From contig NZ_CP012410.1 in assembly GCF_001274535.1 (NCBI RefSeq), positions 1,957,126 to 2,021,125 on the forward strand: a stretch of 64,000 bases of DNA. The letters are read 5' to 3'. This document shows positions 34,754 to 47,833 of this stretch, in pieces; position 1 is the stretch's first letter; the number at the start of each line of letters is the position of its first letter. The notes under the pieces were generated by a model that was not told the DNA's origin, did not search any database, and was given only the letters and a program-made list of their open reading frames with translations. The position numbers and the translations under genes were made by a program. This stretch comes from Leptotrichia sp. oral taxon 212 (GTDB lineage Bacteria; Fusobacteriota; Fusobacteriia; Fusobacteriales; Leptotrichiaceae).

Positions 34754-38336
<3,583 letters not shown>

Positions 38337-46129: not shown

Positions 46130-47323
46130 CTATTTACAGTATCTTTCCCTTAAAATATGTGAAGCTTCCACCATCGAAGACATTTTTTGCTTTATTATTT
46201 CATATGAATTTAGAGGTCTTTTAGAAAATGTTGCAAAACCGCAGTCAGGATTTAGCCATATTTTTTCAGGCGGAAGAAAATCCAGAACCTTTTCAGTTGC
46301 TTTTACTATCTGTTCAGGAGTTTCCACAATTGTATTTCTAGGATTTAGACATCCAAATCCAAGCATTATCTTTTTATCCAGAAAATTATTTGAAAAAAGC
46401 TGTTTTACTTCACCTGCACGGGATGTTGAAAATTCAAGCGCCAGCATATCCACATCCAGCGAATCAAAAAACTTCCCAAGTCTATCATAGGCTCCTTCCA
46501 GCAACACAGTTTCATCGCAAGTCCAGTTTCCACGGCATACATGCATTGCCCCCAGTACATTTTCATGTTTACGGAGCTCTGCAAATACAGGAGCAAGCAA
46601 CTCATTTACAAATTTAAGTTCTCGATCAACCTTGATCTTCTCTGACAGGGCACCTCAGTAAAACGAATTATCCCCTTTTTTCCTTGTAAAAACAACTTCC
46701 GATAAAATCGGCTCATCAATCTGAATAATACCTGCTCCCATCTCAACTAGCCGTCTTATTTCATTAATTAAAAGCTTTACTACATCATTTCCAAGCTCTT
46801 TACGGTCACTATATACTTTCCCTGTAATTTCCTTCATCCACATGGAACGTGTTAACAGATACGGACTTGGCAACGTCATTTTAAAAGGTTTTTTTGAAAA
46901 TTTTTTTATCATATCAACTTCTTCTGTATTGAGCTCTATATCTGTAGAAATTCTGTCTACACACACAGGACTGTTCATCGTATTGTCTGCCGCATCCATT
47001 TCCTCAAGACTTTTATTGAATTCTTCCATATTTCCTGTAATTTCCTTTATATCTTCCATTGTCATGAGCTTTACTCCAGGAACATGTTCTGCAACATAAC
47101 TCATGTAGTTATCTCTCGCCAATTCCCCACTTACAACCACATCAATTCCTACTTCTTCAGACATTTGAATAATCTTTTCTGTTTCTGAATATACTTTTTC
47201 CTTATATTCCTCAGCATATTTATCATCTTTTATGCTTTTTTCTTTTAAATCAAGCAATTCTTTACTTCTTGGCATACTTCCCATTAAAGTCGTTGAAAAT
47301 GGCTTAAATCTGTTATTATCCAT
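46130..47323 (-). CDS. MetE-like methyltransferase with in-frame TGA, candidate selenoprotein
   Basis: A 397-residue protein of the cobalamin-independent methionine synthase (COG0620) group if codon 223, a TGA at 46655-46657, is read through. The frame is unbroken on both sides. Upstream: TTLMGSMPRS and IIQIDEPILSEVVF. Downstream: GALSEKIKVDRELKF and all four zinc ligands, His261 and Cys263 (MHVCRGNW), Glu297 (ALEFSTSRAG) and Cys361 (NPDCGFATF). From memory, relatives have FMCGAL or FMCAAL where this one has FY-TGA-GAL, so the stop sits at a conserved Cys. Start has AAAGGAGG five bases upstream. Alternatives are a nonsense mutation or a sequencing error. Confidence 0.75.
46624..46657 (-). promoter_or_regulatory. 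TGA codon and SECIS-like hairpin
   Basis: Seventeen bases after the TGA (46655-46657) a hairpin GATCA-AGGT-TGATC begins, so its loop opens 22 bases past the TGA. The loop carries the G and U typical of bacterial SECIS elements. The E. coli fdhF element has a loop AGGTCT about 17 bases after TGA. No extended lower stem was found. Confidence 0.55.
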
Positions 47324-47431
47324 GTCAGCCTCCTTTACTGATTTCATTTTGTATAAATCTATCTTAATTTTACTACATCTTATATTTAAATTCAAAATTA
47401 TATTTAATTTTTTCAATTCCTTTATATTTTT

Positions 47432-47491: not shown

Positions 47492-47833
47492 TTAAGGTTC
47501 AACAATTAAATTACTGTTAGTCAATATTTCAACAACTTCTGCCATTGTAGTTGTTCCACCTACTTCAAGGTGATCAGTAAGTTCATAATAATCAACACAG
47601 ATACCACATGAAAGTATTTTTACACCTTTTTTCTCAAGTTCCTTTAAGTCTTCAAGACAAGGTGACCCTTTAGTAGTAAGTTTAGCTCCTTCTCCATAAA
47701 AAATAACATGAGCAGGTAAATTTTCCCTTTGAGCAAGAGTATGAATAAATCCATTCATAAGATTATCAATCAGAGCCTGCTCTCCAATTCCCATTCCAGT
47801 TCCTTTAATTACAACATCATAAGTTTGTGCCAT
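47492..47833 (-). CDS. yedF: YedF-like DsrE-fold protein (selenium-associated family)
   Basis: A 113-residue DsrE-like protein matching the C-terminal domain of the YedF group: GMGIGEQALIDNLMNGFIHT near residue 14, GEGAKLTTKGSPCLEDLKEL near 47, then KKGVKILSCGICVDYYEL with a CGIC motif, then GGTTTMAEVVEIL. The full YedF family carries an N-terminal TusA/SirA domain and is described as confined to genomes with selenium metabolism; here that domain is absent. AGGAGG precedes the ATG. It is followed after 168 bases by the MetE-like gene with in-frame TGA. Confidence 0.85.
   Translation of the reverse strand: MAQTYDVVIKGTGMGIGEQALIDNLMNGFIHTLAQRENLPAHVIFYGEGAKLTTKGSPCLEDLKELEKKGVKILSCGICVDYYELTDHLEVGGTTTMAEVVEILTNSNLIVEP

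Follow-up and report, generated by a model that had tools for sequence, protein, structure and literature searches.

The closest described counterparts of the protein reported here are methionine synthases. Canonical MetE (TIGR01371; structures 1xpg and 4l5z) has the same C-terminal catalytic fold and zinc site, and the MesA-MesD, or core-MetE, enzymes (PMC7857596, PMC7005905) are likewise single barrels of the MetE C-terminal type with HCEC zinc ligands and S/E/D homocysteine-binding residues; in E. coli MetE these binding roles belong to S433, E484 and D599 (PMC7857596). With the known bacterial selenoproteins (119 families; PMC13188914) our locus shares a TGA at a Cys column, a hairpin after the TGA and the sel genes, and with YedF (TIGR03527; PMC5322559), a selenium-linked family, it shares an upstream gene that matches the C-terminal DsrE half with its CGxC motif. 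None of the prokaryotic selenoprotein families in the main text of that May 2026 inventory (PMC13188914) belongs to PF01717 or MetE, which agrees with the view in the original prediction that no selenoprotein is known to have been described in this methionine-synthase-like family. The main text of the deep-Sep study lists no PF01717 selenoprotein either, NCBIfam (June 2026) holds no dedicated model for the MetE-like Cys/Sec family, and in the main text of openly licensed papers we found nothing relevant on a MetE selenoprotein. The gene described here apparently adds an unlisted selenoprotein family, in a zinc methyl-transfer barrel fold that has no Sec in the inventory.

The interrupted frame and its homologues

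The gene lies in a window of 64,000 nucleotides from Leptotrichia sp. oral taxon 212, the whole stretch of DNA that was analysed, and the locus has the following features:

46130..47323, minus strand: predicted MetE-like selenoprotein gene (397 codons; ATG at 47323..47321, stop TAG at 46132..46130; PF01717 at 6e-31, full-length homologues)
46655..46657, minus strand: in-frame TGA, codon 223, predicted selenocysteine (Cys or TGA in homologues)
46624..46637, minus strand: predicted SECIS hairpin GATCA-AGGT-TGATC (5-bp stem, 4-nt loop; p=0.003 vs. synonymous shuffles)
47330..47336, minus strand: Shine-Dalgarno AAGGAGG 5' of the ATG, read from the sequence
47492..47833, minus strand: upstream partner gene, 113 aa, C-terminal DsrE-like half of YedF only, CGIC motif (TIGR03527 at 6.5e-35, profile positions 84-193)

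Read-through translation leaves codon 223 (46657..46655) as the one interruption of the frame, which bears out the proposal of a single TGA in an otherwise intact 397-codon frame; the coordinates first proposed, 46130-47323, are also correct, but the strand had been missed, the gene being on the minus strand. Conservation runs across the TGA, the downstream half matching or exceeding the upstream half (84% vs. 76% identity to the nearest orthologue, and similarly in 10 other homologues), in keeping with the earlier view that both halves look complete. That orthologue (L006), from the same family and another genus, is 81% identical overall and has TGA at the same codon; these two are the only genomes with the gene among 98 from Fusobacteriota.

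Among 84 aligned homologues we found TGA at the codon-223 position in 13 and Cys in the remaining 71 (46 TGC and 25 TGT codons), and no third residue; these 84 proteins are the closest relatives, with the 80 best relatives listed from an alignment-based scan of 84,980 species genomes. The motifs FMCGAL and FMCAAL, named in the original prediction, exist and align exactly on FY-TGA-GAL, and the suggestion that the stop replaces a Cys holds with Cys or TGA in 84/84 homologues. More distant PF01717 proteins (e.g. L036) are without the Cys/Sec loop. The 13 TGA genes come from Leptotrichiaceae, Tissierellia/Parvimonas, Gemella, Facklamia, Companilactobacillus, Atopobacter and a Desulfoprunum, and a scan of 399 Companilactobacillus-family genomes gave three more with the same hairpin and the same upstream gene. 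TGA therefore stands at the same place in other genera and phyla, in at least 16 genomes of Fusobacteriota, Bacillota and Thermodesulfobacteriota, and this recurrence rules out a sequencing error as its source.

Elsewhere in the window (34755-38333, minus strand), the 16S rRNA match covers the model from end to end but amounts to just 852 bp, and the point at which the 16S is interrupted is overlapped by the 23S match, with the customary spacer missing; an assembly collapse or a deletion in this rRNA operon is possible.

Hairpin, selenocysteine machinery and the reading of codon 223

A custom hairpin test found a SECIS-type hairpin just downstream of the TGA, at bases 18-31 after it (starting 17 nt, with the loop 22 nt, after the TGA). 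The same hairpin is present in 11 relatives of the clade and in the three later finds, mostly as GGTCA-AGGT-TGACC or a G-U form, and the Desulfoprunum gene has CCCGC-CGTGAC-GCGGG, unrelated in sequence and similar in placement. When folded automatically from the TGA onward, some sequences yielded other pairings, and these were settled by the custom test, which is constrained and uses synonymous-codon shuffles that follow the codon usage of the gene in question. The hairpin was stronger than the shuffles in 13/13 TGA genes (p 0.003-0.02) vs. 1/71 Cys genes. The stem is short (5 bp, and 4 bp in two species), and its covariation is modest (G-C, G-U and A-U at one pair) because most stem positions never vary; simple covariation counts being weak, we relied on synonymous-codon tests instead. 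Codons +7 to +9, inside the hairpin, have zero synonymous variation in the 12 sequences compared, and codon +7 also opens the six-codon window in which synonymous conservation is highest for the whole gene. Rfam has no matching SECIS model for the hairpin; its AGGU loop is the same as that of the SECIS in E. coli fdhF.

All four genes named in the original prediction (selA, selB, selC and selD) are in this genome, within 6 kb, with selC scoring 72.8 bits against a cut-off of 47. Both tRNA-Sec and SelB were above cut-off in 13/13 TGA genomes, and neither was found in two Cys-form genomes (L048 and L054) or in two relatives without the gene (G069 and G074). SelD is predicted to be a selenoprotein too, its gene having an in-frame TGA in CGG-U-NSKIGPGAL (C1:2070139-2071038, outside the window).

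We reason that SelB, directed by the hairpin just 3' of the TGA, would insert selenocysteine at codon 223, and from these sequence comparisons we regard it as nearly certain that the TGA is so read and that the gene encodes a selenoprotein. The standard code ends the frame at codon 222, and other genes of this genome do end at TGA, as expected if the TGA were a true stop and the gene either a pseudogene or the source of the first 222 residues only, with or without a separate C-terminal piece; but the part after the TGA is no less conserved than the part before it and carries all the zinc ligands, and 16 genomes keep the same TGA, without exception at the Cys position and followed by the hairpin, which makes a true stop highly improbable. 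A full-length protein would result as well if the TGA were read as another amino acid, via a code change or leaky readthrough. In the window, however, five ORFs of 150 aa or more terminate with TGA, and since only one of them is the N-terminal half of the MetE-like gene itself, four others use TGA as their stop; TGA is thus a normal stop for other genes of the window and the genome is not recoded. The aligned residue in homologues without the TGA is, moreover, always Cys, and both a SECIS-type hairpin and the full Sec machinery exist, so that we give insertion of another amino acid next to no weight.

Protein, gene neighbourhood and descent

PF01717, the MetE catalytic-domain family, was the only Pfam family above cut-off, and several methionine synthase models of NCBIfam match far below theirs (TIGR01371 at 101 bits vs. 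a cut-off of 930). The residues of interest are these:

46535..46543, minus strand: zinc ligands H261 and C263 (HVCRGNW motif), invariant in 53 aligned homologues
46433..46435, minus strand: zinc ligand E297, invariant
46241..46243, minus strand: zinc ligand C361 (NPDCGFATF motif), invariant
46715..46717, minus strand: D203 of IQIDEP, equivalent to D599 of E. coli MetE (homocysteine-binding), invariant, from alignment to solved MetE
47278..47276, minus strand: S16, equivalent to S433 of E. coli MetE, invariant
47125..47123, minus strand: E67, equivalent to E484 of E. coli MetE, invariant

All four zinc ligands lie after the TGA, as originally noted. An AlphaFold2 model (mean pLDDT 87, pTM 0.89) matches the catalytic barrels of MetE and the MesD structure 3rpd, and the protein is a single MetE-type C-terminal barrel in which the zinc and homocysteine residues are kept and the folate domain is absent. 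Canonical MetE is ruled out as its identity by the length of 397 aa, the missing N-terminal folate domain and a TIGR01371 score far under the cut-off. Sec223 falls in loop 215-228, just after the IQIDEP strand, and as the pLDDT of this loop in the model is below 50, the loop is probably mobile.

Absent from the original prediction was the YedF-like partner gene, which lacks the TusA-like half and matches only positions 84-193 of the 194 in the YedF profile. In the Sec clade the MetE-like gene directly follows such a half-YedF gene (111-113 aa, CGIC-type motif) at 12/12 loci, and the half-YedF gene stands beside the Sec gene at the 3 further loci too. Cys homologues occur in one setting with an acyl-CoA-dehydrogenase-like gene, an SBP-like gene and an OsmC gene, and in another with TusA, DsrE and a TusA-OsmC fusion. 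From the half-YedF, TusA, DsrE and OsmC neighbours it follows that genes of sulfur-carrier type accompany the family in most settings, whether Sec or Cys.

Some of these loci merit description in their own right. At L048 (5885-9645) and about 38 similar loci, a conserved operon holds an Rv1679-like acyl-CoA dehydrogenase, an Rv1680-like SBP protein, the MetE-like Cys protein and OsmC; openly licensed papers on Rv1679-1681 and on the TusA/DsrE/OsmC/MetE cluster gave no described pathway. On a Paracoccus ferrooxidans megaplasmid (L035, 881-7571), TusA, DsrE and two unknown genes stand with a MetE-like protein fused to a TusA-like domain, adjoined by SelA and TrxB, in what looks like a sulfur/selenium cassette. 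In the Desulfoprunum (L113, 4037-6390), a separate Sec version sits in a DsrE / TusA-OsmC setting.

A maximum-likelihood tree made by a quick method unites the 12 main Sec sequences in a single clade that has full SH-aLRT support, and the Desulfoprunum Sec sequence, on a long branch, falls among Cys proteins, so that at least two changes between Cys and Sec are needed. In the tree the window gene lies inside a group of Bacillota genes, a position suggestive of horizontal transfer. Some genomes have both a Sec and a Cys copy. One genome (G084, which shares its genus with G085) lacks the MetE-like selenoprotein gene despite having tRNA-Sec and SelB, so that the gene is patchy even in close relatives.

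Possible chemistry and comparison with known systems

A change from Cys to Sec near the zinc site had been taken to suggest redox or methyl-transfer chemistry, and judged from the sequence this is plausible. The carrier genes around the family (half-YedF, TusA, DsrE and OsmC) make a zinc-dependent transfer of sulfur, selenium or methyl groups likelier than ordinary methionine synthesis, and neighbours and kept residues together point to trafficking or detoxification of sulfur/selenium, in preference to everyday methionine production, as the probable role of the enzyme; that its zinc chemistry would be linked to S or Se in particular we put at about an even chance. In the mechanism that we propose, Sec223 on its mobile loop over the active site would act as a nucleophilic relay, taking sulfane sulfur or selenium from a DsrE-type partner, or a methyl group, and handing it to, or drawing it from, a homocysteine-like thiol on the zinc. 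It is doubtful, from the same residues and neighbours, that the relay runs exactly so. As a working view that we hold tentatively, a swinging-loop Sec would move S, Se or methyl from a YedF-type carrier to a zinc-bound amino-acid thiol, in an undescribed selenium-linked branch of sulfur amino-acid metabolism that has a Cys version in many phyla.

The protein could instead be a plain core methionine synthase like MesA-MesD, in which a corrinoid protein or some other donor would supply the methyl group for homocysteine and Sec would only tune the activity. It has the expected single MetE C-terminal domain with zinc and homocysteine residues kept (PMC7857596, PMC7005905), and in two Facklamia genomes and the Desulfoprunum no other such protein was found; yet full-length MetE is already present in 7/13 TGA genomes, this one included, and a B12-binding domain is above cut-off in only 4/13 (absent or below it in 9/13), which speaks against corrinoid donors as the general case and, together with the MetE genes, makes a plain methionine synthase less likely. 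MesA-C work with a corrinoid donor partner, and MesD with MesX; at the compared loci no B12-binding neighbour of the Sec gene was found, the conserved neighbours being sulfur/selenium carriers rather than corrinoid proteins, and the functional residues described for MesA-D exclude the Cys/Sec223 position (PMC7857596); we consider such a synthase unlikely. The MetE-type zinc methyl-transfer fold beside YedF, TusA, DsrE and OsmC would also suit an enzyme that makes or breaks methylated S or Se compounds with Sec/Cys as the methyl carrier, for example by persulfide or selenide methylation for detoxification or by demethylation of S-/Se-methyl amino acids, but in the neighbourhoods compared no transporter or regulator is consistently linked to the Sec gene, and we regard this role with some scepticism.

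The Cys homologues with TusA, DsrE and OsmC would mark an uncharacterised sulfur pathway in many phyla. The half-YedF gene gains a constant partner, so that the role of selenium-linked YedF becomes testable, and standard annotation would split or truncate the MetE-like genes in Gemella, Parvimonas, Facklamia, Companilactobacillus and Leptotrichiaceae.

The upstream gene differs from YedF in lacking the N-terminal TusA half, and the YedF work consulted (PMC5322559) makes no link to a MetE-like gene. Compared with MesA-MesD, the MetE-like Sec family has an invariant Cys/Sec loop, sulfur/selenium-carrier neighbours and apparently no general corrinoid partner; compared with canonical MetE, the Sec protein is without the N-terminal folate domain, is about 20% identical and has the extra Cys/Sec loop. 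Finally, most known bacterial selenoproteins are thiol-redox proteins (PMC13188914), whereas the MetE-like protein has the fold of a zinc methyl-transfer barrel.
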